From Tropicimonas sp. IMCC34043 (lineage in GTDB: Bacteria; Pseudomonadota; Alphaproteobacteria; Rhodobacterales; Rhodobacteraceae), in assembly GCF_003390845.1 (NCBI RefSeq), contig NZ_QMEK01000001.1, forward strand, positions 806,001 through 870,000: a stretch of 64,000 bases of DNA. Reading direction: 5' to 3'. Each line of letters opens with the position of its first letter. Position 1 is the first letter of the stretch. The position numbers and the translations under genes are program-made. The notes beneath the pieces were generated by a model that saw only the letters and a list, made by a program, of their open reading frames with translations, had not been told where the DNA came from and made no database searches. Positions 1 through 16,352 of this stretch are shown piece by piece.

Positions 1-522
1 GACGCCTGCAGCTATCTTGTCGGTCTGGGCCACCGCCGCATCGGAATGATCATCGCCTCGTCCCGCATCCGTCCTGGAATCGATCGGATCGCCGGCTTCC
101 GCGAGGCCCACAGGCGGGCGGGACTGGCCGCGCCCGACGCGCTGATCCGGACCGATTGTATCACCGCAGATGCGGCCTTTGCCGAAGTGACCCGGCTGCT
201 GCGGATGCCCGAGCGTCCGACCGCGCTGATCTCGCTGGGAAGCCAGGCACTGGGCGGGACGCTCCGGGCGATCAGGGAAATGGGCCTCGAAATTCCGAAG
301 GACGTTTCGGTGATCTGCCTCGGTGATACCGAGCTGGCCAAAGTCATGACGCCGTCCATTACCTGTATCCAGTGGGACCGCTGGCAACTTGGCCGGCAGA
401 CCGTCGACATGCTTTTGCATCGCATGGCGAACCCGGGCGCCGAGGCCAGGACCATGACCCTGCCGACCGAGTTCATCTTGCGCAACTCCTGTCAGGAAGT
501 GTCTCCGCCCACGCGAGCCTGA
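1..522 (+). CDS. LacI-family transcriptional regulator, C-terminal fragment (5' end outside window)
   Basis: The reading frame is open from the first base, so the start and the helix-turn-helix lie upstream of the window. What remains is the C-terminal part of a periplasmic-binding-protein-like effector domain. It opens with the usual YLVGLGHRRIG strand-turn of LacI/GalR proteins, continues through RIAGFREAHRRAG (ligand-pocket region), and ends with the ITCIQWD and ELGR-like dimer-face motifs (here QLGRQTVDMLLHRM). The gene ends 107 bases before the convergent SDR gene stop. It probably controls a neighbouring sugar or sugar-acid operon; the ligand cannot be read from this fragment. Confidence 0.9.
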   Translation, partial: DACSYLVGLGHRRIGMIIASSRIRPGIDRIAGFREAHRRAGLAAPDALIRTDCITADAAFAEVTRLLRMPERPTALISLGSQALGGTLRAIREMGLEIPKDVSVICLGDTELAKVMTPSITCIQWDRWQLGRQTVDMLLHRMANPGAEARTMTLPTEFILRNSCQEVSPPTRA

Positions 523-628: not shown

Positions 629-1375
629 TCAATAGGTCGAACGTCCGCCCGAGACATCGAACACCCCCCCGGTCGAAAACGAACAATCCGGCGAGCAGAG
701 CCAGCAGACCATCGCCGCGACTTCATCGACCATGCCGAGCCGCCCCATCGGGATCCGCGTCGGCGCATTCTGGCGCCCGGCCGGACCTGCGCTGCGGTCG
801 AACAGGGCGCTGTCGAGCGCCGCCGGGGTGACGCAGTTGACCAGTATGCCGGTCTGCGCGAGTTCCTTCCCGATCGATTTTGCCGCCGTCATGATTGCCG
901 ATTTGGACGCGGAATAGGCGGCGCCAAAGGCGTTTCCGTCCTTGCCGGCGGTCGATCCCAGAAAAACGATCTTGCCATAGCCGTTCAGGCGCATCACCGG
1001 AATCGCGTATTTCGCCGCGATCAGCGGAGCGGTCACGTTGATCTCCATCACCCGGCGCCAAGCGGCGATATCTTGTTCTTCGGTGCTGGTGCGGAGCCCC
1101 TCGATACCGACGCAGTTGGCAAGGATGTCCAGACGCCCGGCGTCCTGCTGCACCGTTGCAAAGGCCGCGCGGGTCCGGGCCTCATCCAGCAAATCGACGG
1201 TTATGGGGCGCAGACCCGGCAAGTCCGCCGCGGCGGCGGCCAGCGCCGCGGCATTCAGGTCGAACGCATAGACCGTGGCACCGTCCGCCAGCATCCGGGC
1301 CGCGACGGCGCGGCCGACGTCCCCCGAGCCGCCGGTGATGACGGCGACATGTCCAGCGATGTCCATCTTGTTCAT
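629..1375 (-). CDS. SDR-family NAD(P)-dependent oxidoreductase
   Basis: A 248-residue classical short-chain dehydrogenase/reductase, the usual family length. The Rossmann glycine motif TGGSGDVG is at about residues 14-21, NCVG replaces the usual NNAG near residue 87, and the catalytic Ser and YSASK lie near 140-158. The C-terminus reads VFDVSGGRSTY, as in FabG-like sugar or sugar-acid dehydrogenases. It lies 30 bases downstream of the TIM-barrel isomerase gene on the same strand, so the two are probably cotranscribed. With a LacI regulator alongside, an oxidation step in sugar, polyol or aldonic-acid catabolism is likely. The substrate is not determined. A second Met at residue 4 is an alternative start. 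Confidence 0.88.
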   Translation of the reverse strand: MNKMDIAGHVAVITGGSGDVGRAVAARMLADGATVYAFDLNAAALAAAAADLPGLRPITVDLLDEARTRAAFATVQQDAGRLDILANCVGIEGLRTSTEEQDIAAWRRVMEINVTAPLIAAKYAIPVMRLNGYGKIVFLGSTAGKDGNAFGAAYSASKSAIMTAAKSIGKELAQTGILVNCVTPAALDSALFDRSAGPAGRQNAPTRIPMGRLGMVDEVAAMVCWLCSPDCSFSTGGVFDVSGGRSTY

Positions 1376-1405: not shown

Positions 1406-2215
1406 TCAAAGCCAGCCCTGGCTGGCGAGGAAGCTTCGCGTTGCCGCGCCAAGATGGCGGGCCCGGTCGTTGAACGGCAGCGCCGCATCGGCGGCCACCG
1501 GCGCCTCGATGCTCAGATGCCGGTCGCGAGGCAGCATCGGCATCAGCCGGTCAAGCCAGAGACTGCCCTCGCCCGGGGCGAGCCGGTCGGTCCGCGCCTC
1601 GCGGACGAGATCCGCATAGGCCGGGCGCAGGGCGCGGGCATCGCAAAGCTGCACGAAGGCAAAATCCCGAGACGTCAAGCCGGCCAGTTGCTCGGGCGCG
1701 CCGCCACTTCGGCTGAAATGGAGCGTGTCCAGCAGCAGGCCCGCATTGGGCTGATCGGCCTGCCACAGCAGGTCGCGCGCCGCGCCGAGCGTCTTGAGCG
1801 CCAGATAGGGAATGAACTCCAGCCCGACGGTGATTTTCCGGGTCGCGGCCCGCTGGCAGAAGGCCGCGAACCTGTCGCGCAGCCGCACCGGATCTTCGTC
1901 GGGGCCGGTGCAGAGCAGGTTCTTCGCCCCCAGTTCGGCCGCCAGATCCAGGGCCGGTTCGAAGCCGTCGAGATCCACGGTTGGCGTCAGGCCGAAGGCT
2001 TCGACGTCGAGGACCTTCAGTCCGGTCGCATCGAGCCGGTGCCTGAGATCGGCACGCGCCTTGCGATCGTTCACCAGATCGACCTCGCCCGGCAGACCGA
2101 GTGTCGTGTTGATGCGCAGGCCCACGCCATCGAAGCCACCGGCTGCAGCGGCCTCGACCAGCTGGTCCGGCCGGGCGTCGATCATCGACAGATGTGCAAG
2201 CGAGACGGACGGCAT
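1406..2215 (-). CDS. Sugar phosphate isomerase/epimerase-like TIM-barrel protein
   Basis: About 269 residues of the xylose-isomerase-like TIM-barrel family. Likely metal ligands are the Glu in VGLEFIPY, the Asp and His in LLDTLHFSRSGG, the Asp in LCDA and the Glu in APGEGSLWLDR. The frame extends upstream to 2299, but the start at 2215 is preferred: it has an AAGGA ribosome site 6 bases upstream and begins MPSVSLAHLSM, where the barrel's first strand should start. It is followed 30 bases later by the SDR gene. By context it isomerises or epimerises the sugar or keto-sugar that the SDR handles; the exact reaction is unknown. Confidence 0.82.
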   Translation of the reverse strand: MPSVSLAHLSMIDARPDQLVEAAAAGGFDGVGLRINTTLGLPGEVDLVNDRKARADLRHRLDATGLKVLDVEAFGLTPTVDLDGFEPALDLAAELGAKNLLCTGPDEDPVRLRDRFAAFCQRAATRKITVGLEFIPYLALKTLGAARDLLWQADQPNAGLLLDTLHFSRSGGAPEQLAGLTSRDFAFVQLCDARALRPAYADLVREARTDRLAPGEGSLWLDRLMPMLPRDRHLSIEAPVAADAALPFNDRARHLGAATRSFLASQGWL

Positions 2216-2706
2216 GGCTGATCCTTGAACCAGAGGGCGGGCGAAAGCCGGCGGGTCCTGGAGTGCGCCGACGGGTGTCGACGCGGAGATTTGCACCAAA
2301 TCCCGGCGCCATCAAGCCTTGAGTTGCGTTTGTGGTTGCTGAATATACAACTTAAGGCCAACAGCGTGACTTTGCGGGATGTCGAAGGATTCTGCGGGAC
2401 GGCGAGGCGCTGATCGATGCGGCGCGGCCCGCCGGACGGCGCTGATCCGGCATGTATGGAGTTCTCTCACGGCAGTTGGCCGAGACGCAGATCCGCGATG
2501 CGGCCGCAGGATCGATTGGCTTTGGTTGACAGCGCGACGGATGCTTGACAATATAATCAACAATAGTTGTGTATGTAGCAACTTGTGGCGACCCAATGGG
2601 ATGCCGTGCAGTGCGACGATGCCTTGACCGGCAATAAGGGTGCCCGTCGCAGGCCGGTGCCCGACAGGTCAAAAATCGCCGCAAGACGCGGCCGAAGGAT
2701 ACAGGA
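2216..2706. promoter_or_regulatory. Divergent intergenic region with AT-rich promoter-like segment
   Basis: No gene is seen in these 491 bases between the leftward isomerase gene and the rightward HCCA-isomerase gene. There is a -35-like TTGACA at 2526-2531 and an AT-rich -10 region at 2549-2557 (AATATA/TATAAT). Two related half-sites in opposite orientation, ATACAACTT near 2344 and AGTTGTGTAT at 2564-2573, flank the region, and CAAC-aata-GTTG is a short inverted repeat near 2559-2569. These resemble regulator sites, possibly of GntR type, but the regulator is not identified. Confidence 0.35.
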
Positions 2707-3315
2707 ATGCCCAAACCGATCGACTTTTTCTTCGCCATTGGATCCCCCTATGTCTATCTCGGCCTCGATCCGATTGCCGAGCTTGCCAGTCGGCATGACG
2801 TACTGCTCGAGGCGCGCCCGGCGCTGCTGATCCCCGAAAACGGCGGCATCTTTTCCAGGGACCGGCCCGAGCCGCGCCGGCAATACTGGTTGAAGGAAAT
2901 CGCACGCTGGGCGGAGCTGCGCGGCAAGACCCTGGTGATGAGCGACCGCGGCCACCTGTCGGATCCGACCCCGGCCTCGATGATGATCGTCGCCGCCGCA
3001 TTGCAGGGACTCGACTGGCTGACGTTGACCGACGCCTTGCAGTCGGCGTTCTGGTCGGAGGAGAGGGCCGATATCGGCAAGCCGGAGGTGCGCGGTGCCT
3101 TGGCCGACAAGGCCGGATTTGACGGCGCGGCGCTGCTTGCGCTCGAATCCTCGGACGAGGTTATGGCCCGCTGGGAGGAAAACCTTGCCATGTCGAAAAG
3201 GCTGGGCGTCTTCGGGATGCCGACCTTTGCCTATGACGGCGAGCTTTACTGGGGTCAGGACAATCTCGACTTTCTCGAACGCCATCTCAATAGCGCGCCG
3301 CTCGGCGTTCAATGA
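2707..3315 (+). CDS. 2-hydroxychromene-2-carboxylate isomerase-like (DsbA/GST-kappa family) protein
   Basis: A 202-residue thioredoxin-fold protein of the HCCA isomerase/GST-kappa group, of typical length. The N-terminal DFFFAIGSPYVYLG provides the Ser that binds the glutathione thiol. The C-terminal GVFGMPTFAYDGELYWGQD followed by a DFLERHL segment is the family's most conserved block, with the cis-Pro after GM. The start has moderate support (purine-rich AAGGATACAGGA upstream). The stop overlaps the next start by 4 bases (ATGA), so the two products are translationally coupled. A glutathione-dependent isomerase in the soluble fraction is likely. Naphthalene degradation, which gave the family its name, is not implied by these neighbours. 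Confidence 0.87.
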   Translation: MPKPIDFFFAIGSPYVYLGLDPIAELASRHDVLLEARPALLIPENGGIFSRDRPEPRRQYWLKEIARWAELRGKTLVMSDRGHLSDPTPASMMIVAAALQGLDWLTLTDALQSAFWSEERADIGKPEVRGALADKAGFDGAALLALESSDEVMARWEENLAMSKRLGVFGMPTFAYDGELYWGQDNLDFLERHLNSAPLGVQ

Positions 3316-3797
3316 CGCCCCGGTCGATCCCGGTGTCGCAGGAGCTTGCGGCGCTGGTGCCTCTGGTTCTGCCGATCCGCACCACGGACGGAAGCCGGGT
3401 TGCCTTTGCGCAGGCGGTCGATCACAGCGACAGGGCTGACAAGCCGGTCCTGTCGGTTGCCGCCGCGCGCGGTCGCAGCGGGGCCGCGATGGTCTCGACG
3501 CTCGAACGTCACCCCCACAGCGGTCAGACTTTCCTGCCGCTCGCTCCGGTGCGCTGGTTGATCGCTGTCGCGCCGGACGATGCGCAGGGGCAGCCCGACC
3601 TGTCCCGGCTGCGCGCCGCCGTGGCCGGGCCGGGCGATGCGGTGATCTTCCCCCGCAATGTCTGGCACGCGCCCCTGACCGTTCTGGACGGGGATGCTGC
3701 CGATTTCGTCATGCTGATGTGGCGGCTCGATCCGGCCGAGGATACCCAGACCTTTGTCTTGCCGGTCCCGGTCGGATTGGGCGACGTCGCGACATGA
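3312..3797 (+). CDS. Ureidoglycolate lyase (AllA)-family cupin protein
   Basis: A 161-residue cupin, the family length. Diagnostic stretches are LERHPHSGQTFLPL, the segment around WLIAVAP, FPRNVWHAPLTVLD and DFVMLMW; in AllA these form the ureidoglycolate pocket. Ureidoglycolate lyase releases urea and glyoxylate at the end of purine/allantoin degradation, but no other purine gene is near. The protein is coupled by a 4-base overlap to the HCCA-isomerase-like gene. An AllA homologue recruited to another 2-hydroxyacid or adduct-cleaving step is therefore possible. The family call is firm and the substrate is not. Confidence 0.82.
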   Translation: MTPRSIPVSQELAALVPLVLPIRTTDGSRVAFAQAVDHSDRADKPVLSVAAARGRSGAAMVSTLERHPHSGQTFLPLAPVRWLIAVAPDDAQGQPDLSRLRAAVAGPGDAVIFPRNVWHAPLTVLDGDAADFVMLMWRLDPAEDTQTFVLPVPVGLGDVAT

Positions 3798-3823
3798 TCG
3801 ATGATCGGTTCGCCATCCGGGTC

Positions 3824-4759
3824 TTAATAGCCCTGGGTGACGTCCACGGCGCCCGGGATCTCCTTGCCGTCAAGAAACAGGGATATGTTGCGCAGCAGGA
3901 GGTCGGACATCCGCGCATCCGTCGCCTCGGACATCCCGCACACATGGGGCGTCAGACGGACCTTGGGATGCGTGAACAGCGGGTGGCCGGCGGGCAGCGG
4001 CTCGGGGTCGGTCACGTCGAGCGTTGCGGCGCCAATCTGTCCGGCGTCCAGCGCTGCAATCAGCGCATCCTGATCGATGGTTGCACCGCGGCTGACGTTG
4101 ATCAGATGCAGATGCGGTTGCGCCAGGGCGAGCGTCTCGGCATTGATGCAATGCCGGGTCTCGGGGGTCAGCGGCAGGCTGAGCGCGACATGATCGCTCT
4201 CGCGCATGACGCTCGCCAGATTGGCGGCGCGCACCCCGTCCAGGCCGATCCGGCCCGACCGGGTCACGGCAAGGACCTTCATGCCGATCGCAAGGGCGGT
4301 TTTTGCCACTTCGGTCCCGATGCCGCCCATGCCGACGATGCCGAGCGTCTTGCCGGCAACTCCGCCCAGCATCTTGTGGTTCCAGTCCTCGACCCGGCGC
4401 ACCGGACCGTCCCAGAACCTCTTTTCATGGGCATAGATCGTCCCGATGACGAATTCGCCGATTGCCGGCGACTGAATGCCGGGACCGCGCGTGACCAGCG
4501 CCACATCGAGCGCCCAGCGTGGAAAGGTATCTACCCCGGCCGATGGTATCTGAATCCACTCGAGGCCGAAGGGCCAGCCCGGCGGAGGGTCGGCGGGGGC
4601 CTGTTTCCAGTGGCTTTGAAAGGTGAACAGCGCATTCGCTTCCGGTGGCGGCATCCAGGGATCGCCCGTCATGGCGATCACCTCGGGGTGACTGGAATGG
4701 CCCCGGAGCGCCATGTTCTGGCCCTCGGGCAGCGTGCTGGCAATGGTCAGGCGTTTCAC
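3824..4759 (-). CDS. D-isomer-specific 2-hydroxyacid dehydrogenase (NAD(P)-dependent)
   Basis: A soluble D-2-hydroxyacid dehydrogenase of the hydroxypyruvate/phosphoglycerate reductase type. The nucleotide motif GMGGIG lies in the middle of the protein. The catalytic Arg is in VSRGATID, the Glu in DPEPLP and the His in LTPHVCG. Start choice is uncertain: a GTG at 4759 has GGGAGA 7 bases upstream and gives 311 residues, the usual size. In-frame ATGs at 4816, 4831 and 4900 would add an unusual hydrophobic leader from AT-rich DNA with no ribosome site. The gene is divergent from the sulfurtransferase-dehydrogenase fusion, so it may reduce or oxidise the same 2-keto/2-hydroxyacid pair with NAD(P)H. 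Confidence 0.85.
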   Translation of the reverse strand: MKRLTIASTLPEGQNMALRGHSSHPEVIAMTGDPWMPPPEANALFTFQSHWKQAPADPPPGWPFGLEWIQIPSAGVDTFPRWALDVALVTRGPGIQSPAIGEFVIGTIYAHEKRFWDGPVRRVEDWNHKMLGGVAGKTLGIVGMGGIGTEVAKTALAIGMKVLAVTRSGRIGLDGVRAANLASVMRESDHVALSLPLTPETRHCINAETLALAQPHLHLINVSRGATIDQDALIAALDAGQIGAATLDVTDPEPLPAGHPLFTHPKVRLTPHVCGMSEATDARMSDLLLRNISLFLDGKEIPGAVDVTQGY

Positions 4760-4834
4760 GCGCGGATCTCCCGGTTCTTCCGCGATCCGAATACCACGGG
4801 TTGAGGTTGTGCGCATCAAAAAATGCACCATATA

Positions 4835-4900
4835 TTGTGACATGAGAAACAAGTGAAGGTAATATTGCCAGATTATGGCAAACAAGTGCATATGTGACAA
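4835..4900. promoter_or_regulatory. Repeat-rich control region between hydroxyacid dehydrogenase and fusion gene
   Basis: This AT-rich stretch holds a perfect inverted repeat TTGCCA-gatta-TGGCAA at 4865-4881. It also holds two direct copies of AAACAAGTG (4847-4855 and 4880-4888, 33 bases apart, about three helical turns) and two copies of TGTGACA (4836-4842 and 4893-4899). Such an arrangement between divergent genes fits binding of a dimeric regulator; the IclR protein encoded at 7303-8043 is the natural candidate. Nothing here proves binding. Confidence 0.45.
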
Positions 4901-4962
4901 CTAATACCACCAAACCACACCCTTCGCGGTCCCGGATCGCAATCGGGCAGAAAGGAGCCGCA

Positions 4963-7182
4963 ATGCGTACGTTGATCTCTACCTCTGAACTGGCTGTGCT
5001 GCTGGACCGCGATGCCGTGGTCTTGCTGGATGCCACCTTCACAATGCCCGGAGTCCAGCCTGACGCCGCACAGCTTTATGCCACCCGCCACATCCCCGGC
5101 GCGGTCTTTTTCGACATCGATGCCGTGGCCGATACAGCGTCGGACCTGCCCCACATGTTGCCATCGCCCGAACAATTCGCGGCGCAGGTCGGTGCAATGG
5201 GGATCTCCAACGACAGCCTGGTGGTGGTCTACGACACCCCCGGCATGGTGTCGGCGGGCCGGGCCTGGTGGATGTTTCGTGTGATGGGCCATGACAATGT
5301 CCGGGTTCTGGATGGCGGCCTCAAGGCCTGGCTTGCCGAAGGGCGCCCGGTGACCGCCGAGCTCCCGGTTCCGGTGGCCGCGTGCTTTATCGCGCAGTTG
5401 CACCAGGGCAAGGTTCGCAACCGCGACCAGATGCTGGCCAATGTCGGCACAGGGGTTGAGCAGGTCATCGATGCCCGCAGCGGGGATCGGTTTCAGGCCA
5501 GGGTTCCAGAACCGAGACAGGGGCTGCGCAGCGGGCATATTCCGGGAAGTCTGAGCTTGCCGTCCGATCAGCTCAGCGATGCGCAGACAGGTCGGATGCT
5601 GGGTCCCTCGGCACTGCGGCAGCTCTTTTCCGAGGCCGGGCTGTCCTGGGATCAGCCGGTCATCACCACGTGCGGCTCTGGCGTGACGGCCGGGGCACTG
5701 GCGCTTGGCCTGCATCTGGCCGGTCATCCCGCAGTCGCGCTCTACGACGGGTCCTGGACCGAGTGGGGCGCCGGGTCGGAGACCCCGGTCGAGACCGGCC
5801 CCGCACGGGTCAGACGCGGCAGGATCGCACCGGCCGTCGAGGCATTGCGCGAGGTCTTCGGTGATCGTCTCAGCACCGCGCAGGGGATACGCGATCATCA
5901 CGGCAAGGATGTCACCCACCATCCCGGCCAGTCGCCCGATGCGGTTGTCTTCGCGAAATCCACCGCAGAGGTGCAAGCGGCGGTGACGATTTGCGCGGAC
6001 CATGGCGTGCCGGTGATCGCCTATGGCACCGGCTCGTCGTTGGAGGGTCATATCACGGCACCCTACGGCGGCGTGACCATCAACCTGTCAGGAATGGACC
6101 AGATTCGCGCGGTCAGTCCGGAGGATATGGATGTGACGGTCGAGGCCGGCGTGACCCGCGAGGCCCTGAACACATATCTCCGCGATACCGGCCTGTTCTT
6201 TCCCATCGATCCGGGCGCCAATGCCAGCCTTGGCGGCATGATCGCAACCCGCGCCTCGGGCACCAATGCGGTGCGCTATGGCACGATGTCCGACAATGTG
6301 CTGGCGCTCGAGGTGGTTCTGGCCGACGGCTCGGTGATCCGGACCGGAAGCCGGGCGCGGAAATCCTCTTCAGGCTATGATCTCACACACCTTATGGTCG
6401 GTTCCGAAGGAACGCTCGGCATTGTCACCGCGGCGACCTTGCGCCTGCATGGCCGACCGGACAGCGTCTCTGCGGCGACCTGCGCATTCGAAACCCTCGA
6501 CGGGGCCGTGACAACGGCGATCGAGACCATCCAGAGCGGTGTGCCGATCGCGAGGATCGAGCTTCTGGACGCGGGAGCGGTGGATGCCGTGAACCGGCAT
6601 TCCGGCATGACGCTGCCGTTGAAGACGACGCTGTTTCTGGAATTCCATGGCACCGCCACCGGCGTTGCCGAGCAGACCGACCTGTTCCGCGCCCTGGCGC
6701 AGGCCAACGGCGCCAGCGATTTTGCATGGGCCGTCAAGGAGGAGGACCGCACGGCGCTCTGGACCGCCCGGCATCAGACGCTGTTTGCGGTCAAGGGGCT
6801 GCGCCCCGGCTCGGAGGTGTATATCTCGGATGTCTGCGTGCCGATCTCGCAGCTGGCTGATTGCATTCTGGACGTTCAGCGCGACATCCTGGCCGAGAAC
6901 CTCGTCGCTCCGATCATCGGTCATGTCGGGGACGGCAACTTTCATGTCCTGTTCCTGAATGATCCCGACAATGCCGAGGAACAGGCGCGGATCCATGCCG
7001 TGAACGACCGGATGCTGGAACGTGCCTTGGCGGCCGGCGGCACGGCGACCGGCGAACACGGCATCGGGATCGGCAAGCGGGACTACCTGCGCAAAGAGCA
7101 TGGCGCCGCCGTTGACCTAATGGCGGCGATCAAGGCTGCTGTCGATCCGGGCAACATCATGAATCCGGGCAAGATTCTTTGA
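4963..7182 (+). CDS. Fusion protein: 3-mercaptopyruvate sulfurtransferase (rhodanese) + FAD-linked D-2-hydroxyacid dehydrogenase
   Basis: A 739-residue single polypeptide. Residues 1 to about 285 are a full two-domain SseA-type sulfurtransferase. The catalytic Cys is at about 237 in CGSGVTAG, the loop typical of mercaptopyruvate rather than thiosulfate enzymes, and the lobe ends at DGSWTEWGAG. After only about 15 residues, residues 300-739 form a complete FAD-linked dehydrogenase of the D-lactate/glycolate-oxidase (Dld/GlcD) type. It has the PP-loop-like GTGSSLEGH near 355, GANASLGGM, GSEGTLGIV, the metal/active-site GHVGDGNFHV near 655, GEHGIGIGK near 697 and the terminal NIMNPGKIL. The frame is open throughout. 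An AGAAAGGAG ribosome site precedes ATG 4963; the upstream in-frame ATG at 4894 lies in the control region. Chemically, oxidation of 3-mercaptolactate to 3-mercaptopyruvate and its desulfuration to pyruvate would link both halves; this is inference. Confidence 0.9.
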   Translation: MRTLISTSELAVLLDRDAVVLLDATFTMPGVQPDAAQLYATRHIPGAVFFDIDAVADTASDLPHMLPSPEQFAAQVGAMGISNDSLVVVYDTPGMVSAGRAWWMFRVMGHDNVRVLDGGLKAWLAEGRPVTAELPVPVAACFIAQLHQGKVRNRDQMLANVGTGVEQVIDARSGDRFQARVPEPRQGLRSGHIPGSLSLPSDQLSDAQTGRMLGPSALRQLFSEAGLSWDQPVITTCGSGVTAGALALGLHLAGHPAVALYDGSWTEWGAGSETPVETGPARVRRGRIAPAVEALREVFGDRLSTAQGIRDHHGKDVTHHPGQSPDAVVFAKSTAEVQAAVTICADHGVPVIAYGTGSSLEGHITAPYGGVTINLSGMDQIRAVSPEDMDVTVEAGVTREALNTYLRDTGLFFPIDPGANASLGGMIATRASGTNAVRYGTMSDNVLALEVVLADGSVIRTGSRARKSSSGYDLTHLMVGSEGTLGIVTAATLRLHGRPDSVSAATCAFETLDGAVTTAIETIQSGVPIARIELLDAGAVDAVNRHSGMTLPLKTTLFLEFHGTATGVAEQTDLFRALAQANGASDFAWAVKEEDRTALWTARHQTLFAVKGLRPGSEVYISDVCVPISQLADCILDVQRDILAENLVAPIIGHVGDGNFHVLFLNDPDNAEEQARIHAVNDRMLERALAAGGTATGEHGIGIGKRDYLRKEHGAAVDLMAAIKAAVDPGNIMNPGKIL

Positions 7183-7302: not shown

Positions 7303-8043
7303 ATGGCTGAAGATCTTCCGCAATCAGAGCAACCCGAGCTTGTTGCCGAAAGACAGACGCCGATGAAGTCCCTGCACCGGGGGCTTCTCGCCCTGCAGGC
7401 GCTGGACGAGGCGAGGACGTTGCGGACGGTGGATCTGGCGCAGCGGCTTGGCATCGACAAGGGGCTGGCCTCGCGAATACTGCAAACCCTGACCGCCACA
7501 GGCTTTGCCGAACGCACGCCGGATCGCCGCTATCGCGCGACGCGGCCTTCGAGCGCGATGACCGAACGCCGTACCGGAGTGGCACTTCGGACCGTTACCC
7601 GCAGCCTTTTGCAGCAGCTTTGCGAAAGCTCGGGCGAATCCGCGCATCTGGGCGTTCTGGCAGATGACCGCGTGGTCTTTGTCGAACGCGCGGTTCCGTC
7701 CGTGGCGCTGCTGGTCGACAGGCCCGTCGGGACATTGGTCAGCCTCTACAACTCGGCCATCGGCAAGGTCTTTCTGGCCCATTTCGGTGTCGGAGTCGCC
7801 GGTCTGCCAAAGGACGATCCGCTGCTGCCAGACGCCGAAGGCCTGAACGTCATCCGCGAACAAGGGTACGCGACGGACGATGAGGAACTGTTTGCCGGCG
7901 TTCGCTGTGCGGCCGCACCGGTCTTCGACGCCAACGGTCTGATGGTCGCGGCAATCAGCCTGTCGGGCCCCTCCAGCCGGATCAGCAGCGCGCGCATGCA
8001 TGAGCTTGGACGAATGCTGAAGGCGTCCATTCCCACGGTCTGA
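7303..8043 (+). CDS. IclR-family transcriptional regulator
   Basis: About 246 residues. The N-terminal winged helix-turn-helix spans roughly residues 22-85 (MKSLHRGLLAL, then LRTVDLAQRLGIDKGLASRIL). The IclR effector domain follows, with SGESAHLGVL, VGTLVSLYNSAIGKVFLA, IREQGYATDDEELFAGV and AAISLSGPSSRI. It sits 120 bases downstream of the fusion gene on the same strand and probably regulates that gene and the divergent hydroxyacid dehydrogenase. The ATG at 7303 follows a purine-rich AGAGAGAG; a longer in-frame start at 7204 is disfavoured because it adds an unconserved leader. Confidence 0.92.
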   Translation: MAEDLPQSEQPELVAERQTPMKSLHRGLLALQALDEARTLRTVDLAQRLGIDKGLASRILQTLTATGFAERTPDRRYRATRPSSAMTERRTGVALRTVTRSLLQQLCESSGESAHLGVLADDRVVFVERAVPSVALLVDRPVGTLVSLYNSAIGKVFLAHFGVGVAGLPKDDPLLPDAEGLNVIREQGYATDDEELFAGVRCAAAPVFDANGLMVAAISLSGPSSRISSARMHELGRMLKASIPTV

Positions 8044-8693: not shown

Positions 8694-9683
8694 TCAGCCG
8701 ACAGGCGTCGGGTCGACGGCGGCAGAGACGGCGTTGACGACGATGCCGAGGGCGCGCGCCGACGCCGGCCAGCCGCCAGAGGGCAGATCCGCCGAACCCG
8801 GCACCAGCCAGACCGTGACGCGGCCGGCGGCCGCCTCGTCCAGCAGCCGCACCGAGCCATCCGTGCCCGGCGCCAGGCTGACCCGTTCGGCATCACGGCG
8901 GGCGAGCTCAAGGATCTCGGGGCCGGTGCCGTCCGTGACCAGCAGAATATCCGCCTCCTGCAGATGGCGCATGGCGCGCAGGCTCAGCAGGTCGGCCGCG
9001 CCGGTGCCTGTGCCGATCACCGTGATCGACCCGCTCCGCGATTGCCCCGGCGCGCCGCCTGCGGCGATGGCGGCGTCGATGCGCGCGCGCGCGGCCGCAA
9101 GATCGCCCGCGGCCTGCAGCCGCCGTGGCGCATCGCCAAAGACCCAGCGCCAGAACGGGCGCCGCGCTGCCTCGGGCACGTGTTGCGCGACCTCGGGGCG
9201 AAGGCGACCGGCCAGGGCGGCAAAGGCGCCAAGGCTGGGTTCAAGCAGCGTCTCGATCCGGGCGCGCACCATCCGGCCGAGCACCGGCGCATTGCCTTCG
9301 GTGCCGATTGCCACCACCAGCGGGTCGCGGTCGACGATCGAGGGCGTGAAGGCGTCGCAAAGGGCGGGCTGATCGACGACGTTGACAAGCGCCCGTGCCT
9401 CGACCGCCAGGGCCTGCATTGCGGCGTCGGCCCCGGGGCACCCGGTGGCGATGAAGACCAGCACCGCCCCCTCGAAGGTTTCCGGCCCCACCCGACCGGC
9501 GTCGTGATCTGCGCGCCCCGCGGCAACAACGCCCGCGAGTTCCGGTTCGAGCCTTGGGGCAAGGATCAGCAGCCGCGCCTCGGTCCGCGCGATGAGGCGT
9601 GCCTTCTGGGCCGCCTGCTCGGCGCCACCGACAACGACCACATGCCGCCCGGTCATCTTCAGAAACATCGGAAATGTCTTCAC
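8694..9683 (-). CDS. cysG: Siroheme synthase-like: precorrin-2 dehydrogenase/ferrochelatase with truncated methyltransferase domain
   Basis: A 329-residue protein with a GTG start (GAGG upstream). Residues 1 to about 215 match the CysG N-terminal half (Met8/SirC-like). They comprise the NAD-binding VVVVGGAEQAAQKARL, the catalytic-Asp block NVVDQPALCDAFTPSIVDRDPLV, AIGTEGNAPVLGRMVRARIE and a FWRWVFG helical segment. These carry out precorrin-2 oxidation and Fe chelation to siroheme. Residues 222-329 begin like the SAM uroporphyrinogen methyltransferase (GTGTGAADLLSLRAMRHL), but the canonical GAGPGDPD loop is changed and the domain stops after about 105 residues instead of about 240. The methyltransferase step must therefore come from another gene. 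It is last in an operon with a family-3 glycosyltransferase and a DUF2478 gene. Confidence 0.85.
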   Translation of the reverse strand: MKTFPMFLKMTGRHVVVVGGAEQAAQKARLIARTEARLLILAPRLEPELAGVVAAGRADHDAGRVGPETFEGAVLVFIATGCPGADAAMQALAVEARALVNVVDQPALCDAFTPSIVDRDPLVVAIGTEGNAPVLGRMVRARIETLLEPSLGAFAALAGRLRPEVAQHVPEAARRPFWRWVFGDAPRRLQAAGDLAAARARIDAAIAAGGAPGQSRSGSITVIGTGTGAADLLSLRAMRHLQEADILLVTDGTGPEILELARRDAERVSLAPGTDGSVRLLDEAAAGRVTVWLVPGSADLPSGGWPASARALGIVVNAVSAAVDPTPVG

Positions 9684-9695
9684 GAAGGACGATCC

Positions 9696-10697
9696 TCAGG
9701 CCGCGACGCGACGGTCGCGGGTTTCCCACAATTGGCGGGCAAGCGCATCCGCCGCGGCCACATCGGGCGCCGCGCCAAGCGCCATCAGGGCAAGACCTGC
9801 GGTGCCGCAGACGATTGCCTCGGCAAAGATGTCGCGTGCAGCCCCCGACCACAGCGCGGTCAGGGACGCCGCCGCGAGCGGCAGTTCCGGCCCTTCGGCA
9901 AGCCGCACAGAGGTCTCGGCCAGAAGTTCCGGCGCGACAATCTCGAAGGCTGCATTGCCACGCAGCCCGCTCACCGGGACATCCTTGGCGGGGTTGCGTT
10001 CGAACTCGCCACCGCCGCCCTTGATGATCGCAAGGTTCGGCTGGCCGAGGATCGCCGCCGCCGCCTGTTGAAGCTGCAGGTAGGGCGGGTGAAACACCCC
10101 CTGCACCAGCGTCGGGGCCGCGCCGGGGTTCACCATCCGCGCCACCGTGTTCATCGCCGAGCGCAGCCCGAGGATGTCGCGCAATTGTAGCACCTCAAGC
10201 ACCTTCGGCGCGTAGGATTCAAGCGGCAGATAGACGATCCCGCGTCGCGCCAGCAGCTCGCCCGCCGATCCCATGTCAGCGGCGATCGCGATGCCCAGAT
10301 GGGGCAGGGCGGCCGCGACCGAGGCGGCCTCGCCCTGATGCCGGGCCGAGTTCCAGCCGTGCAGCAGCACCGGATGCCCGGCTTCGGCGACCAGCCGTGC
10401 CGACAGCAGGAACCACGGCAACCCGCGCGAGCGTCCGGCCGCAAGACTTGGCCAGTCGAGTGCCGGCTGCGGCCCGGACCAGACCGGCAGCGCGTCGCGC
10501 ACCGCGCGGGTAAAACCCGCGATCTCGCCCGGGCTTTCGCCGCGATAGCGCATCAGCATCAGCAGCGCGCCGACCGCCGCCGGCTCGGCCGTGCCGTCGA
10601 GGATCTGACGCATGGCGTCCTGCGCCTCGTCCGCTTCCAGCGACCGGGCACGGCTCGGACCGCGGCCCATGGCGCGGATATAGGGGGTCAGGCTCAT
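9696..10697 (-). CDS. Glycosyl transferase family 3 / anthranilate phosphoribosyltransferase-like protein
   Basis: A 333-residue protein resembling TrpD/YbiB-type phosphoribosyltransferases. The N-terminal helical domain has the family phrase GALLMLMRYRGESPGEIAGFTRAVR; the catalytic barrel includes LLHGWNS, LRSAMNTVARMVNPG and IIKGGGGEFERNP. The KGGGGE stretch replaces the HGxDGLDE loop of true TrpD, so anthranilate use is unlikely. It ends 12 bases before the siroheme-synthase-like gene. In Rhodobacterales such proteins are found near siroheme and nitrate/nitrite assimilation genes, which points to an accessory role there. That link is from family memory, not from anything in this window. 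Confidence 0.75.
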   Translation of the reverse strand: MSLTPYIRAMGRGPSRARSLEADEAQDAMRQILDGTAEPAAVGALLMLMRYRGESPGEIAGFTRAVRDALPVWSGPQPALDWPSLAAGRSRGLPWFLLSARLVAEAGHPVLLHGWNSARHQGEAASVAAALPHLGIAIAADMGSAGELLARRGIVYLPLESYAPKVLEVLQLRDILGLRSAMNTVARMVNPGAAPTLVQGVFHPPYLQLQQAAAAILGQPNLAIIKGGGGEFERNPAKDVPVSGLRGNAAFEIVAPELLAETSVRLAEGPELPLAAASLTALWSGAARDIFAEAIVCGTAGLALMALGAAPDVAAADALARQLWETRDRRVAA

Positions 10698-10863
10698 TGC
10701 GCCGCGACCTTCAGGGGGGGCAGCGCCTGAAGCCTGGGCTTGCAGGATCCGCGGTGGCTGACTGTGTTCAGCGCGGTGCCGATTTCGTCCACGATGGTCA
10801 ATCCTTTGGTGCTGGTCGCAGTCAGGACAGTGTTAACCCCAACATCGCAGCGGGCGCAAACGG

Positions 10864-11370
10864 TCAGCCCCCGATGCGGGCCTCGGTCCGGCACCACTCG
10901 GCCAGCGCCGCGGGATCGCAGGGCAGGCGGGTGGCAAGATCGCCGGCAAAGGCGAGGAAGTCGGCCAGTTGCGCCCCGGCAAGGCCCACCACCACCGGCA
11001 CCTCGCGCTCTGCCGCGGCGGCGATGAGTTGGCGAAAGCCGTGGCCCTCGGCCTCGTGGTGACCGAATTTGTTGACGATCACCACGTCTGCGCCGTCGGC
11101 AAGGCGGGTATCGGCAGCCTGCACCACGTGTTCCAGCCGGTCCGGGTCAAGCCGGCAGCCGGTCGATCCCGGGCCGAGCGCCTGCGAGATGCAGACCTGC
11201 GGCCCATCCGGCAGCAGCAGCAGATCCATCTGGCAGGTCGCATCGGGGTCGCATTCAAGCTGCACGGCACCGACCGCGTGCAGCCCGGAAGCCTTCAGCG
11301 CTTCGGCCAGCGCCCGCAGGGTGGCGTTCCGTTCTCCGGGACGGTCGGTGAGGATATAGGCAAGCTGCAT
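10864..11370 (-). CDS. DUF2478 domain-containing protein
   Basis: A 168-residue soluble protein beginning MQLAYILTDRPGERN. It has a Cys-containing stretch (LECDPDATCQMDLLLLPDG), then DVVIVNKFGHHEAEGHGFRQLIAAA and VPVVVGLAG, the arrangement I associate with DUF2478 (THEP1-like nucleotide-binding) proteins. The NKFG..EA.G.G motif is the most diagnostic. It is first in the three-gene minus-strand operon with the family-3 transferase and the siroheme gene; the gap to the next gene is 166 bases. The start at 11370 has GGGAAGA upstream. Function unknown. Confidence 0.68.
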   Translation of the reverse strand: MQLAYILTDRPGERNATLRALAEALKASGLHAVGAVQLECDPDATCQMDLLLLPDGPQVCISQALGPGSTGCRLDPDRLEHVVQAADTRLADGADVVIVNKFGHHEAEGHGFRQLIAAAAEREVPVVVGLAGAQLADFLAFAGDLATRLPCDPAALAEWCRTEARIGG

Positions 11371-11527
11371 CGGTCTTCCCGTGGAAATCGGGTCAGGCGG
11401 GGCCCGCGGTTCGCATAGCACGGCCATGCCGTCGCGAAAAGGCCGCGACCTGCGCCGCAGCGGTGGCTTGTCGCGGCGGCGCGGTCTTGGTCTTGTGGCC
11501 AGGACGAGGCAACGAGGCGGGGAATCG

Positions 11528-12241
11528 ATGGCGCGGATCGTGTTGGTGCATGGGGCCTGGGGCAATGCGCGCAGCTGGGGGCGGGTGCGCACGCGGCTGC
11601 GCGCGCTGGGGCATGCGGTCGAGGTCATGGACCTGCCCGGGCATGGCGCCGACCCGACCCCGGTCGAGACTGTCGGGCTGGCCAGCTATGGGCGTGCGGT
11701 GGCGGAACGGGTGTCGGCCGGGGAGCCCGCGCTGCTGGTTGGCCATTCCATGGGCGGCATGGCGATTTCGGCCGCGGCAGAGCTGGCGCCCGAGGCGATC
11801 GCCCGGCTGGTCTATGTCTGCGCCTTCCTGCCGCGATCCGGGGAAAGCCTGCTCGACCTGATGCGGCGCCAGCCGCTGACCATTGCCGCGGCGGTGCGGA
11901 CCGGCCCGGTGCCGGGGACAACCCGGCTCGACCCCGAACTTGCGGCCGGGGTTCTGTTCCACGATGCCAGCCCCGAGCAGAAGAAGGCCGCCATGGCGGA
12001 ACTTGGGGTGCAACCCAATGCGCCGCAGACCGACAAGGCGGTGTTGAGTGCCGAACGCTTCGGGCGGGTGCCGCGGGCCTATATCCTCTGCGCGCAGGAC
12101 CGAACCATCACACCCGCGCTGCAACGTGCCATGATTGCCGACAGCCCCTGCGATCCGGTGCTGGAACTGGACGTGGGGCATCTGCCGCAGCTGACGGCGC
12201 CAGAGGAACTGGCGGCGCTGATCGACGGGCTGGCGGGCTGA
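11528..12241 (+). CDS. Alpha/beta-fold hydrolase (MES/HNL-like esterase family)
   Basis: A 237-residue alpha/beta hydrolase. It has an oxyanion-hole region VLVHGAWGNARSW at the N-terminus, the nucleophile Ser in VGHSMGGM, an Asp in CAQDRTIT and the catalytic His in LDVGHLPQL. The overall pattern (short cap, VYVCAFLPRSGESL) is that of small esterases related to plant methyl-esterases and hydroxynitrile lyases. The start at 11528 has GGGGAA upstream; longer in-frame starts run into the divergent DUF2478 gene. The substrate cannot be inferred. No signal peptide is seen, so it acts in the cytoplasm. Confidence 0.85.
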   Translation: MARIVLVHGAWGNARSWGRVRTRLRALGHAVEVMDLPGHGADPTPVETVGLASYGRAVAERVSAGEPALLVGHSMGGMAISAAAELAPEAIARLVYVCAFLPRSGESLLDLMRRQPLTIAAAVRTGPVPGTTRLDPELAAGVLFHDASPEQKKAAMAELGVQPNAPQTDKAVLSAERFGRVPRAYILCAQDRTITPALQRAMIADSPCDPVLELDVGHLPQLTAPEELAALIDGLAG

Positions 12242-12997: not shown

Positions 12998-13966
12998 TCA
13001 GCCAAGCGTCAACAGGGTCTGGATATGCAGGGCCATCCCGGTCAGGGCCGCGTCGTCGTCCGAGACGACCGTCACCGGGAATTGCTGCAGGAAGGTGCCA
13101 AACCGCCCCTTGTCGCGCAGCGCCTCGACGAAGCCTCCGCCGACCAGATAGGGCGCCATTGCGCGGGCGACGCCGCCGATCAGGAAGATCCCGCCGAACG
13201 GCAGCATGGTCAGCGCCAGATCCCCGACCACAGCCCCCAGCAGCCGGGAGAACAGGGCCGCGGTCTCGACCGCCCGCGCATCTCCGCGCGCGACCTCGGC
13301 CATGATCTCCTTGCCTTTCAGCACCGCCTTGCCGGGTTCTCCGGCCTCGGCGCAGAGGAACTGGTGCAACGCCACAAGGCCGCGTCCCGACAGCGCATCC
13401 TCGACCGAGGGGAACCCGTGGGCGCGTTCGAGGAAGGCGCCAAGCCGCATGTCGCGTTCGCTGCGCAGCGGCAGGCCGGTATGGCCGGTTTCGGCCGGCG
13501 GCACGAACCGCCCCGCGGGAGTCTGGAACACCGGTGCTGCGTTGAATCCGGTGCCGATGCCGACGACAAGCTGGGTCGCGTCAAGCTGCGGCGGCGTGCC
13601 GGGGATCACGGGATCGAGTGCCGAGGACGGGATGTGCCCCAGCGCATGGCCCTGCGCCTGCAGGTCGTTCAGCAAGGTCACCATGCCCGCCCCGGTCGCG
13701 GCGGCCAGCACGTGGCTGTCGATCGTCCAGTCGAGGTTGGTCATTGCGCCGACCCCGTCGCGCACGGGTCCCGCCATCGCCAGACAGGCCGCGGCCGGGG
13801 TCGCGGTGCCGGTTTCCTCGAGATAGCGATGCAGCACCGGCTCGAGCGCCGCGAACTGATCGTTGGGATAATGGCGCACCGAACCGTGGACCACCTTGCC
13901 GCCGCGCGACAGGGCCACGCGGGTGTTGGTGCCGCCGATATCGGCAAGAAGAGACAGATCGGACAT
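12998..13966 (-). CDS. glk: Glucokinase
   Basis: A 322-residue ROK-unrelated, Glk-type glucokinase (ATP:D-glucose 6-phosphotransferase). It has the phosphate loop LLADIGGTNTRVAL at the N-terminus, the active-site segment NLDWTID, LNDLQAQGHAL with the catalytic Asp, GIGTGFNAA, ETGHTGLPL and FLIGGVA near the C-terminus. ATG 13966 has GGAGGAG upstream. It is third in a minus-strand operon after aglR and the GH1 glucosidase (26-base gap). It would phosphorylate glucose freed by the glucosidases of this locus and feed it to the Entner-Doudoroff route usual in this group. Confidence 0.93.
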   Translation of the reverse strand: MSDLSLLADIGGTNTRVALSRGGKVVHGSVRHYPNDQFAALEPVLHRYLEETGTATPAAACLAMAGPVRDGVGAMTNLDWTIDSHVLAAATGAGMVTLLNDLQAQGHALGHIPSSALDPVIPGTPPQLDATQLVVGIGTGFNAAPVFQTPAGRFVPPAETGHTGLPLRSERDMRLGAFLERAHGFPSVEDALSGRGLVALHQFLCAEAGEPGKAVLKGKEIMAEVARGDARAVETAALFSRLLGAVVGDLALTMLPFGGIFLIGGVARAMAPYLVGGGFVEALRDKGRFGTFLQQFPVTVVSDDDAALTGMALHIQTLLTLG

Positions 13967-13992
13967 GGGTGGGCTCCTCCGCTCGCCCCCGG

Positions 13993-15309
13993 TCAACGCG
14001 ACAGGGCGGTTTTCAGGGCATGGTAGGAGGCCTTTGGCGTCCGCACCAGCGTGTCGAAATCGACATGGACCAAGCCAAAGCGCTTTTCATAGCCGAGCGC
14101 CCATTCGAAGTTGTCCATCAGCGACCAGACGAAATAGCCCTCCAGCGGTACGCCCTCGTCCATCGCACGTTTTGCGGCGGCAAAGTGGGCGGCAAGATAG
14201 TCGATGCGTGCGCTGTCATCGACCGCGCCGTTCACCACGGTATCGTCATTCGCCATGCCGTTTTCGGTGACATAGAGCGGCAGTCCGCCGGCGTAGTCGT
14301 TCGCGAGATGCAGGAAGTGGTGCAGCCCCTCGGGATAGATCTCCCATCCCATCTGGGTCTTCGGCAGCGGACCGGGAACCGATTTATTGGCAGGCCAGGG
14401 GCCGGGTGCGGGCGCCAGGATCTCGCGGGTGTAGTAGTTCACGCCAAGCCAGTCGACCGGCGTGCCGATCACGTCGAAATCGTCCTGCCAGCGGTCGGGC
14501 AGGTGGCGTTCGAGCGCGGACAGGATGCGGTCGGGGTATTTCTTGCGAAAGAACGCCGACAGGAACAACTGGTTGTAATGGGCATCGAAGGTCGCTGCCG
14601 CCTCGGCCGCCTCGGGGCTGTCGTCGGCGGGTTCTGCATAGGAAAAGTTGCAGACCGCGCCGATATCGCCGTGGCCCGCGGCGCGCAACGCCTCGGTCGC
14701 CATGCCATGGGCCAGCAGCACGTGATGGACAGATCGCGCGGTGGCGCGGATGTCGCGCAGACCGGGGGCGTGTTCGCCAAAGAAATGGCTCAGGAAACTG
14801 ACGCACCACAACTCGTTGATGGTGGCGGTCTTCCAGATCCGGTCGCCGAGCCGGTCCATCAGCAGCACCGAATAATCGGCAAACCAGGATGCGACATCGC
14901 GGTTGCGCCAGCCGCCGAGGTCGGCCAGCGGCGAGGGCAGTTCCCAGTGATAGAGCGTCAGCATCGGCTTGATCCCGCGCTCGAGCATCCCGTCGACCAG
15001 CCGGTCGTAGAAATCGAGCCCCTCGGGGTTGAGGGTGCCACGGCCCTCGGGCAGAACCCGCGCCCAGGACGCCGAGAAACGATAGGCGCCATAGCCGCCG
15101 TCGCGGATCAGGTCGAGGTCTTCGGCCCAGCGGTTGTAGTGGTCGCAGGCAATCGAACCGTTCTCGGCCCGTACGACGTTTCCCGGGGTTTCGGCGAAAT
15201 CGTCCCAATGGGTGCGTCCCGAACCACCGAAGGCCTGCCCCTCGATCTGATAGGCGGCGGTGGAGACTCCGAAAACGAAGTCTTCGGGGAAATCATTACG
15301 TTGCAGCAT
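13993..15309 (-). CDS. Family 1 glycoside hydrolase (beta-glucosidase type)
   Basis: A 438-residue GH1 enzyme, the typical length. It starts with FPEDFVFGVSTAAYQIEG, the family N-terminal signature. The nucleophile Glu is in YVTENGM and the acid/base Glu in TINELW; the motif is nearly always NEP, so the Pro to Leu change is unusual. QxW/YHWELP, NYYTRE and SLMDNFEWALGY line the sugar pocket. No signal peptide, so it is cytoplasmic. It lies 11 bases after aglR and before glk, so it likely cleaves imported glucosides to glucose. GH1 enzymes normally cut beta-glucosides; its presence in an alpha-glucoside locus matches the layout seen in other Rhizobiales and Rhodobacterales agl regions. Confidence 0.92.
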   Translation of the reverse strand: MLQRNDFPEDFVFGVSTAAYQIEGQAFGGSGRTHWDDFAETPGNVVRAENGSIACDHYNRWAEDLDLIRDGGYGAYRFSASWARVLPEGRGTLNPEGLDFYDRLVDGMLERGIKPMLTLYHWELPSPLADLGGWRNRDVASWFADYSVLLMDRLGDRIWKTATINELWCVSFLSHFFGEHAPGLRDIRATARSVHHVLLAHGMATEALRAAGHGDIGAVCNFSYAEPADDSPEAAEAAATFDAHYNQLFLSAFFRKKYPDRILSALERHLPDRWQDDFDVIGTPVDWLGVNYYTREILAPAPGPWPANKSVPGPLPKTQMGWEIYPEGLHHFLHLANDYAGGLPLYVTENGMANDDTVVNGAVDDSARIDYLAAHFAAAKRAMDEGVPLEGYFVWSLMDNFEWALGYEKRFGLVHVDFDTLVRTPKASYHALKTALSR

Positions 15310-15320
15310 GAAGTGGGACC

Positions 15321-16352
15321 TCAGGTTGTGGGGGCCGGTCCACTGGAATGGCCGATGACGAAGGTGGAAGTGAGAAGGGTCTGCAATGGAGCGCAGTCGG
15401 GGTCGTCGATGATCCGCATCAGCATGTCGGCCGAAAGGTGGCCGGCATCGCGCACCGAGGAATGGGTCGAGGTGAAGATCGGCGCGCCGGGGTCGCCGTT
15501 GGGAAAATAGGACAGGCCGTCATCGTGGGTCACGACCGAGACGTCACGGCCCATCTTCAATCCCCGCGCCTCGATCGCGCGCCGCGCGCCAAGCGCGACA
15601 AGCAGCGACGAACACAGGAAGGCGGTGGGCGGGGCAGGCTGGTCGAGCATTCGTGCCGCTGCGGCATGGCCGTAGGTCTCGGTCATGAACTGGCAGGCGA
15701 TCAGCGCCGGATCCTCGGCAATACCGCTTTCGGACAACGCTTGCGAATAGCCGAGGTGGCGGCGGCGGGCAAAGTCCATCTCCTCGACCCCGTTCAACAA
15801 TGCGATCCGGCGGTGGCCGAATTCCAGCAGATGGCGGGTGGCGGCACGGAACGCGGTCGTGTTGTCGGTGTCGAGCCAGGAATAGCTGTCGTCATGATCC
15901 GATGTCCGGCCGTGGACGACAAAGGGCAGGCCGGTCTGCTGCAGAACCGCGATCCGCCGGTCGGATGTCAGCGGCGCCTGCATGAGCAGCCCGTCGACCC
16001 GGCCACGCGTCGTCGGCGCGCGATAGGCCCGTTCCTCGTCGGCATTGGCGACGAGCGACAGCACAAGGTCATAGCCGCGCGCGGCAAAGGTCTCGGCAGC
16101 GCCCGCGATGAAATCGGCGAAGACCGGGTTCACCATTTCCTGTTTGGCAGACATCGGGATCACCAGACCGATCGCCATGGCGCGGCCAGTGGCCAGCGAC
16201 CGGGCGCGGCTGTCGGGGCGGTAGCCATACTGCTGGGCGGCGTCGCGGACACGCACGCGAGTCGCTTCGCTGACCTCGGGATAGCCGTTCAGCGCGCGGC
16301 TGACGGTGGTCTGACTGAGGCCGAGCATGGCGGCCAGATCCTTGAGGTTCAT
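15321..16352 (-). CDS. aglR: LacI-family transcriptional repressor of the alpha-glucoside locus (AglR-like)
   Basis: A 343-residue LacI protein. The N-terminal DNA-binding helix-turn-helix reads NLKDLAAMLGLSQTTVSRALNG, followed by the hinge RARSLATGRA. The effector domain includes IGLVIPMS, GRVDGLLMQAP, WLDTDNTTAF, LEFGHRRIALLNG and DVSVVTHDDG. It is the first gene of the leftward aglR-GH1-glk operon and is divergent from aglE. Two LacI-type palindromes sit between the two starts. By position and family it represses both operons until alpha-glucosides (or a derivative) bind. The name follows the conserved aglR-aglEFGAK gene order. Confidence 0.88.
   Translation of the reverse strand: MNLKDLAAMLGLSQTTVSRALNGYPEVSEATRVRVRDAAQQYGYRPDSRARSLATGRAMAIGLVIPMSAKQEMVNPVFADFIAGAAETFAARGYDLVLSLVANADEERAYRAPTTRGRVDGLLMQAPLTSDRRIAVLQQTGLPFVVHGRTSDHDDSYSWLDTDNTTAFRAATRHLLEFGHRRIALLNGVEEMDFARRRHLGYSQALSESGIAEDPALIACQFMTETYGHAAAARMLDQPAPPTAFLCSSLLVALGARRAIEARGLKMGRDVSVVTHDDGLSYFPNGDPGAPIFTSTHSSVRDAGHLSADMLMRIIDDPDCAPLQTLLTSTFVIGHSSGPAPTT

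Follow-up and report, generated by a model that had tools for sequence, protein, structure and literature searches.

A single-frame fusion of a predicted 3-mercaptopyruvate sulfurtransferase with a FAD-linked D-2-hydroxyacid dehydrogenase in Tropicimonas sp. IMCC34043

The fusion gene and its join

In a 64,000-nucleotide stretch of the Tropicimonas sp. IMCC34043 genome (contig NZ_QMEK01000001.1, positions 806,001 to 870,000; hereafter the window), one gene joins an SseA-type 3-mercaptopyruvate sulfurtransferase (MPST) region to a flavin adenine dinucleotide (FAD)-linked D-2-hydroxyacid dehydrogenase (Dld) region. Table 1 lists the gene, its parts, its neighbors, and three related plasmid clusters; L and G numbers denote loci and genomes, respectively. 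From the ATG at 4963, preceded by an AGGAG motif that ends 5 nt upstream, to the stop at 7180-7182, the open reading frame (ORF) comprises 739 uninterrupted codons in a single frame. A preliminary description of this DNA had proposed two complete halves in one frame, and the 739-codon ORF, the Pfam and NCBIfam domains, and the structure matches agree with it; the linker, put there at about 15 residues, is nearer 10. The fusion is a genuine single reading frame, and the catalytic residues of both halves are intact.

Table 1. Features at the fusion locus and in related plasmid clusters (window positions unless a locus is named)
Feature	Position	Strand	Basis
C-terminal part of LacI-like regulator, whose start lies to the left of the window (L247 9776-11023)	1..522	+	By eye from sequence
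Short-chain dehydrogenase, module membership uncertain	629..1375	-	Domain scan
Xylose-isomerase-like TIM barrel protein, module membership uncertain	1406..2299	-	Domain scan
DsbA/HCCA-isomerase-like protein	2707..3315	+	51-55% identity to its counterpart immediately upstream of sseA in six Rhizobiaceae clusters
Ureidoglycolate-lyase-family protein, 4-bp overlap with the DsbA/HCCA-like gene	3312..3797	+	Over Pfam cut-off, below NCBIfam cut-offs
Divergent NAD(P)-type D-2-hydroxyacid dehydrogenase (2-Hacid_dh_C)	3824..4900	-	Domain models; 44% to that of the Neorhizobium cluster (L142)
Intergenic region separating the divergent dehydrogenase from the fusion, presumed promoter	4901..4962	.	Position
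Fusion gene, MPST (SseA) then FAD-linked D-2-hydroxyacid dehydrogenase, 739 aa	4963..7182	+	ORF and domain models
SseA/MPST half, residues 1-280	4963..5802	+	Pfam, NCBIfam, residue alignment
Linker, approximately residues 281-289	5803..5829	+	Position of ATGA stop/start overlap in separate genes
FAD-linked D-2-hydroxyacid dehydrogenase half, residues 290-739	5830..7179	+	Pfam, structure-sequence match, residue alignment
IclR-family regulator	7303..8043	+	Closest NCBIfam model BhcR, 131.5 bits against cut-off 350
SseA-less plasmid clusters with DsbA/HCCA-like and BisC-type genes	L265 6653-11319, L267 6877-11283, L268 6209-9319		Found via BisC protein search

No ATG, GTG, or TTG occurs in any frame across the join (5764-5844). 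Past it, start-type codons resume with an in-frame TTG at 5845 (residue 295), which has a GAGG 2 nt upstream and lies, as compared by eye, 8 to 11 residues inside the start point of separate dehydrogenase relatives; the frame is open through this codon, and a minor separate dehydrogenase product may conceivably arise from it. Third-position G+C stays at 0.74 to 0.84 across the join without a break. The preliminary description took a stop and new start between the domains in close relatives as the mark of an assembly or sequencing error. Relatives do have this arrangement, but the reading as an error was not borne out: a join lacking any start codon, although relatives have a stop and new start there, argues for an evolutionary fusion. 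The ATGA overlap of the separate genes sets the second one in a different frame, so that fusion requires a frame-shifting indel that also deletes the stop. A sequencing or assembly frameshift is disfavored as the source of the fusion by the startless join and the continuous codon usage, and a small assembly error at this point appears unlikely. One predicted structure of the whole protein (mean predicted local distance difference test score 67.5, predicted template modeling score 0.54) was set aside; its low quality probably reflects an underlying alignment in which rows for one half were mingled with rows for the other.

The sulfurtransferase half

Pfam Rhodanese matches two stretches of the N-terminal half (E 9.7e-29), and the NCBIfam MPST equivalog NF008557 is narrowly passed over residues 4-278 (251.7 bits against a cut-off of 250). 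The closest solved structures of this half are those of MPST (3olh/4jgt, 216 bits). Thiosulfate rhodaneses typically carry a CRKGVT loop, in contrast to the CG(S/T)GVT loop of MPST; the catalytic loop here reads C237-G-S-G-V-T and is of the MPST type, as the preliminary description had stated for Cys237. Six residues, C237, S239, R176, R185, H64, and D51, match human MPST residues in an alignment for which the human numbering was counted by hand, and are conserved in nearly all of 179 SseA rows; the human equivalents presumably serve in the active site. With its two rhodanese stretches, its CGSGVT loop, and the active-site arginine pair with histidine and aspartate, this half resembles human MPST and SseA, and we predict that it is a complete and active SseA-type 3-mercaptopyruvate sulfurtransferase. 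It differs from other SseA proteins in residues of its own clade that are rare elsewhere (e.g., G99, A179, and A245) and in being joined to a flavoenzyme. The same genome also encodes a second, ordinary stand-alone SseA, 49% identical to the fusion half, and a separate D-lactate dehydrogenase.

The dehydrogenase half

The C-terminal half matches Pfam FAD_binding_4 at residues 325-462 (2.2e-40) and FAD-oxidase_C at residues 499-738 (7.3e-60). Its closest solved structure is LDHD chain 8jdc (509 bits), to which residues 290-739 align over the full length; the window enzyme differs from LDHD in carrying an N-terminal fusion partner. Mouse LDHD binds metal and the substrate acid through R347, H398, H405, E442, and H443 (PMC10589216, available in part), and all five have equivalents in the window half. 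The side-chain pocket is hydrophobic, with L, L, V, I, and L at five positions where the mouse enzyme has V, W, A, S, and I. According to the available part of the same paper, LDHD acts on a broad range of D-2-hydroxyacids whose side chains are hydrophobic and is inactive on glycolate, D-malate, and D-2-hydroxyglutarate, and the GlcD pocket contains a Phe/Tyr pair (PMC10589216). Mercaptolactate is absent from the LDHD substrates in that part of the paper, where the sole "mercapto" compound is 2-mercaptoethanol.

The window pocket lacks the Phe/Tyr pair, and the NCBIfam GlcD equivalog TIGR00387 was not reached (323.5 against 567.9 bits). Glycolate oxidase and D-2-hydroxyglutarate dehydrogenase were rejected as identities for this half, since the NCBIfam scores fall far under the cut-off and the pocket is hydrophobic. 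Of the D-lactate/glycolate dehydrogenase assignment made earlier, the FAD and active-site residues stood and the glycolate type did not. The residues fit a hydrophobic-pocket D-2-hydroxyacid dehydrogenase, for which activity is predicted.

A role of the module in glyoxylate or glycolate metabolism, with SseA incidental, can be considered here. In its favor, the dehydrogenase half is related to glycolate oxidase, the IclR-family regulator matches BhcR at a score well short of its cut-off, and a neighboring product matches ureidoglycolate lyase models (Table 1). However, the GlcD score, the pocket, and the ureidoglycolate-lyase-like gene, which had zero matches among the related loci searched, speak against this role, and we consider it very unlikely.

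The SseA clade is paired with FAD-linked dehydrogenases

In the SseA trees, the fusion half falls in a clade of nine members: the window half, five proteins from Rhizobiaceae plasmids (L142, L143, L145, L146, and L147), one from Martelella (L148), and those of genomes G539 (L152 and L209) and G1219 (L216 and L246). A single branch sets the clade apart, with a FastTree support of 0.979 (8 rows) and an SH-aLRT of 88 (9 rows, not starred), and G539 is the nearest clade mate of the window half (support 89). G539 and G1219 came from searches with the SseA half or a profile in 394, 398, 297, and 121 genomes (overlapping sets, the first, second, and fourth of which include the window's own genome). 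G539 belongs to the same family as the window genome, and its SseA is 60% identical; the SseA of G1219 (family f174) scored 535.7 bits, against 338.3 for the next match. Family f174 is probably Rhizobiaceae, because its other SseA rows are 88% identical to one from Mesorhizobium.

A FAD-linked dehydrogenase is fused to, or encoded directly downstream of, SseA in all nine clade members. The eight other than the window half have separate genes, the downstream partner being LDHD-like in seven and a FAD plus Fe-S protein in one, and all seven LDHD-like pairs (six from Rhizobiaceae and that of G539) overlap as ATGA. By contrast with the clade, no LDHD-like gene lay near SseA at any of 85 other SseA loci (L153-L208 and L217-L245), which were best-scoring matches rather than a random set and mostly covered about 1.5 kb on each side. 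SseA and dehydrogenase genes were side by side in 0 of 80 GTDB loci. The pairing is seen repeatedly, in two families and on several plasmids, and its presence in the whole clade provides independent support for a linked chemistry of the two halves.

The exceptional partner is on the Martelella AD-3 plasmid (L148 9917-13619), where the clade SseA gene is followed after 19 bases by that for the FAD plus Fe-S protein, 26-27% identical to the Dld half and a putative 2-hydroxyacid dehydrogenase. This pair sits in a sugar-type cluster, with a DoxD-annotated gene further downstream. The SseA of R. rhododendri (L147) is shortened and may be degenerate. On the Roseinatronobacter S2 plasmid (L144 8974-11189), the order is reversed, with a dehydrogenase gene overlapping the following MPST-like gene by 4 bp; the product of the latter has a CGSGMT loop and lies outside the SseA clade. 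This is apparently a separate pairing, and it adjoins a tripartite tricarboxylate transporter.

The fusion itself was found once. With the fusion as query, no second one appeared among the matches listed in 145 relatives and, within the class, 384 other genomes; these samples overlap, and the match lists are ranked, so that a fused match would be expected at the top. A tblastn search of a plasmid collection gave nine records in which a single location accounts for at least 80% of the fusion; of the six examined, five are Rhizobiaceae plasmids in which sseA precedes dld, and the sixth, from Roseinatronobacter, has the two genes in the opposite order. Conservation of the fusion, which the preliminary description had named as support, was thus not observed in related genomes, where the genes are separate and adjacent. 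In the open literature, covered through titles and abstract openings and with most subscription papers outside, we found neither a bacterial 3-mercaptolactate pathway nor a sulfurtransferase-D-lactate dehydrogenase fusion.

Related clusters on Rhizobiaceae plasmids

Five of the Rhizobiaceae loci (L143, L145, L146, L147, and L246) share the order TetR regulator, DsbA/HCCA-like protein, SseA, Dld, BisC-type reductase, and ATP-binding cassette (ABC) importer. L142 keeps this order from the DsbA/HCCA-like gene onward, and upstream of that gene it encodes a tripartite transporter and a 2-hydroxyacid dehydrogenase. In L142, L143, L145, L146, and L147, the next gene after the importer is for an LLM flavin monooxygenase, and the L246 stretch ends at the importer. 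A ketopantoate-reductase-like gene is near or beside the pair in L143 and G539.

DsbA/HCCA-like and BisC-type genes occur in seven of the nine clade clusters, including that of the window. Here, all four types (DsbA/HCCA-like, SseA, Dld, and BisC) lie in one neighborhood, formed by window positions 2707-7182 and a BisC-family molybdenum S/N-oxide reductase gene at L247 7591-9897, which spans roughly 2.9 to 0.6 kb before window base 1. Beside the latter are a polar amino acid-type ABC ATPase, the LacI-like regulator, and a xylose-isomerase-like gene. The compact module first described, an IclR regulator and a divergent dehydrogenase around the fusion, is present and proved to be larger, with DsbA/HCCA-like, BisC-type, and ABC ATPase genes. 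The window cluster shares with the rhizobial ones the DsbA/HCCA-like protein, SseA, Dld, BisC-type reductase, and ABC importer genes. It differs in its fusion, its polar-amino-acid-type ABC genes, and its LacI-like and IclR regulators, whereas the Rhizobiaceae clusters have separate sseA and dld genes with the ATGA overlap, a peptide/nickel-type ABC importer, and LLM monooxygenases. No LLM protein was among the 23 own-genome proteins scanned, the rest of the genome not having been searched for one.

The left-flank BisC is 59% identical to the rhizobial one (next best in 99 relatives, 53%), and its genome has three further BisC-family matches. For the DsbA/HCCA-like protein, the next match in its own genome reached 40%, and the best match in each of ten pair-less genomes reached 27-36%. 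The R. etli cluster encodes two LLM monooxygenases, for one of which the alkanesulfonate and dimethylsulfone types are the closest models, with every score under its cut-off. It also encodes an O-acetylhomoserine sulfhydrylase that exceeds its subfamily cut-off; these enzymes fit sulfur scavenging.

Proposed function of the fusion

MPST uses 3-mercaptopyruvate as its keto-acid substrate, and the 2-hydroxyacid that yields 3-mercaptopyruvate on oxidation is 3-mercaptolactate. Since enzymes of the LDHD type make 2-ketoacids, the common intermediate of the two halves would be 3-mercaptopyruvate derived from D-3-mercaptolactate. Two well-known enzyme families are thus combined in an unusual but real fusion, with good comparative support for a linked function, and we infer the substrate. 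With moderate confidence, we interpret the fusion as a bifunctional catabolic enzyme, which would most likely convert D-3-mercaptolactate via 3-mercaptopyruvate to pyruvate and persulfide sulfur. The C-terminal half, using FAD and a divalent metal, would oxidize a D-2-hydroxyacid whose side chain is small and either hydrophobic or thiol-bearing, D-3-mercaptolactate being the likeliest candidate, and would deliver the electrons to an acceptor in the respiratory chain or elsewhere. The N-terminal half would receive 3-mercaptopyruvate, take its sulfur onto Cys237 as a persulfide, and release pyruvate. The persulfide would then pass to a thiol acceptor (glutathione or thioredoxin), for which the neighboring DsbA/HCCA-like protein is a candidate.

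With the ABC importer and the BisC-type S/N-oxide reductase, the fusion may catalyze the last step of a cluster that scavenges organosulfur compounds. A more tentative extension, which we regard as possible but doubtful, makes it the terminal enzyme of a new organosulfur route that would proceed through import, sulfoxide reduction by BisC, cleavage, oxidation of the resulting D-3-mercaptolactate, and desulfuration, with 3-mercaptopyruvate handed over within one polypeptide. 3-Mercaptolactate is a waste product excreted by patients lacking MPST (PMC9856076, available in part). If our interpretation is correct, the bacterial enzyme would give this compound a use, converting it back to 3-mercaptopyruvate and harvesting its sulfur, and would help to explain the recurring gene set of rhizobial plasmids. 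The fusion allows the question of linked chemistry to be addressed directly with one purified protein.

Several observations weigh against this interpretation. The pocket of the window half is unlike that of the paired dehydrogenases, which have L, F, G, S, and V in Rhizobiaceae and L, W, G, S, and V in G539, suggesting that the substrates may differ; the Martelella partner has L, L, V, V, and V, in an alignment that is unsure at 26% identity. The clusters of R. leguminosarum RCAM1365 and R. etli NXC12 contain DsbA/HCCA-like, dehydrogenase, and BisC genes without SseA, and their dehydrogenases are 81-87% identical to the paired ones. These clusters imply that the dehydrogenase is useful without a local SseA, which argues against obligatory coupling, although a housekeeping SseA could stand in. 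The strain 31B cluster has neither SseA nor a whole dehydrogenase; what it retains is a 21-residue stretch matching the dehydrogenase (L268 6865-6927). In G539 and Martelella, the pair has no DsbA/HCCA-like or BisC gene next to it. G1219 has a second DsbA/HCCA-like gene (contig 9, 53%) away from any SseA; the 19.5 kb around it contained no SseA, Dld, or BisC match. Finally, the BisC of a Pseudoroseomonas plasmid reaches the same 59% identity, and the annotation there shows no other gene of the cluster within 9 kb; BisC similarity is therefore a weak marker of the cluster. The linked chemistry proposed in the preliminary description remains plausible in view of the nine-of-nine pairing, but the need for the two activities to work together is weakened by the SseA-less clusters.

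The phylogeny of the dehydrogenase half also counts against the interpretation. FastTree and a quick IQ-TREE analysis placed this half outside the clade of paired dehydrogenases, with a starred branch (99) between them in the latter. A position inside that clade is unsupported by these trees; a single clade was not rejected by an approximately unbiased test on 34 chosen rows (P = 0.237). Two histories may apply: the fusion may have arisen directly from an ordered sseA-dld pair that lost its stop/start overlap, followed by fast dehydrogenase evolution, or SseA may have met another dehydrogenase. The former, which our interpretation adopts, would be simpler; the latter would strengthen the case that the two activities work together, and the present data fit either.

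A different origin of the dehydrogenase half, together with the single fused example among the genomes sampled, could also indicate that neighboring genes without a functional relation were joined by a recent accident, or by a minor error of assembly, and have no chemistry in common. We consider this unlikely, given the startless join, the unbroken codon usage, and a neighbor relation that recurs in both families.

A more serious alternative, possible though in our view less probable than sequential catalysis, is that the two halves serve the same pathway in parallel. The dehydrogenase would oxidize another D-2-hydroxyacid from the cluster, such as D-lactate or an S-substituted lactate, and the MPST half would supply or remove sulfane sulfur made elsewhere, joining serving only to fix their ratio and regulation. 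The sister clusters with a dehydrogenase and no SseA, the divergent pocket of the fusion, and the breadth of hydrophobic D-2-hydroxyacids taken by LDHD (PMC10589216) are in line with this. Against it stands the clade itself, whose every SseA has a dehydrogenase fused or directly downstream, even where the partner is of another type, and sequential conversion of D-3-mercaptolactate remains our preferred interpretation.

Other genes around the fusion

The start of the divergent dehydrogenase gene at 4900 was set mechanically, and the true start is probably further inside. Between this gene and the fusion, only short inverted repeats were seen, none of them convincing as an operator. To the right of the IclR gene, window positions 8694-11628 carry, consecutively on the minus strand, genes for a CysG-type siroheme synthase, a glycosyltransferase-3 family protein, and a DUF2478 protein. 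Further on (12998-16352), genes for a glucokinase, a family 1 glycosyl hydrolase, and a LacI regulator stand in a row, by appearance a locus for beta-glucoside use.

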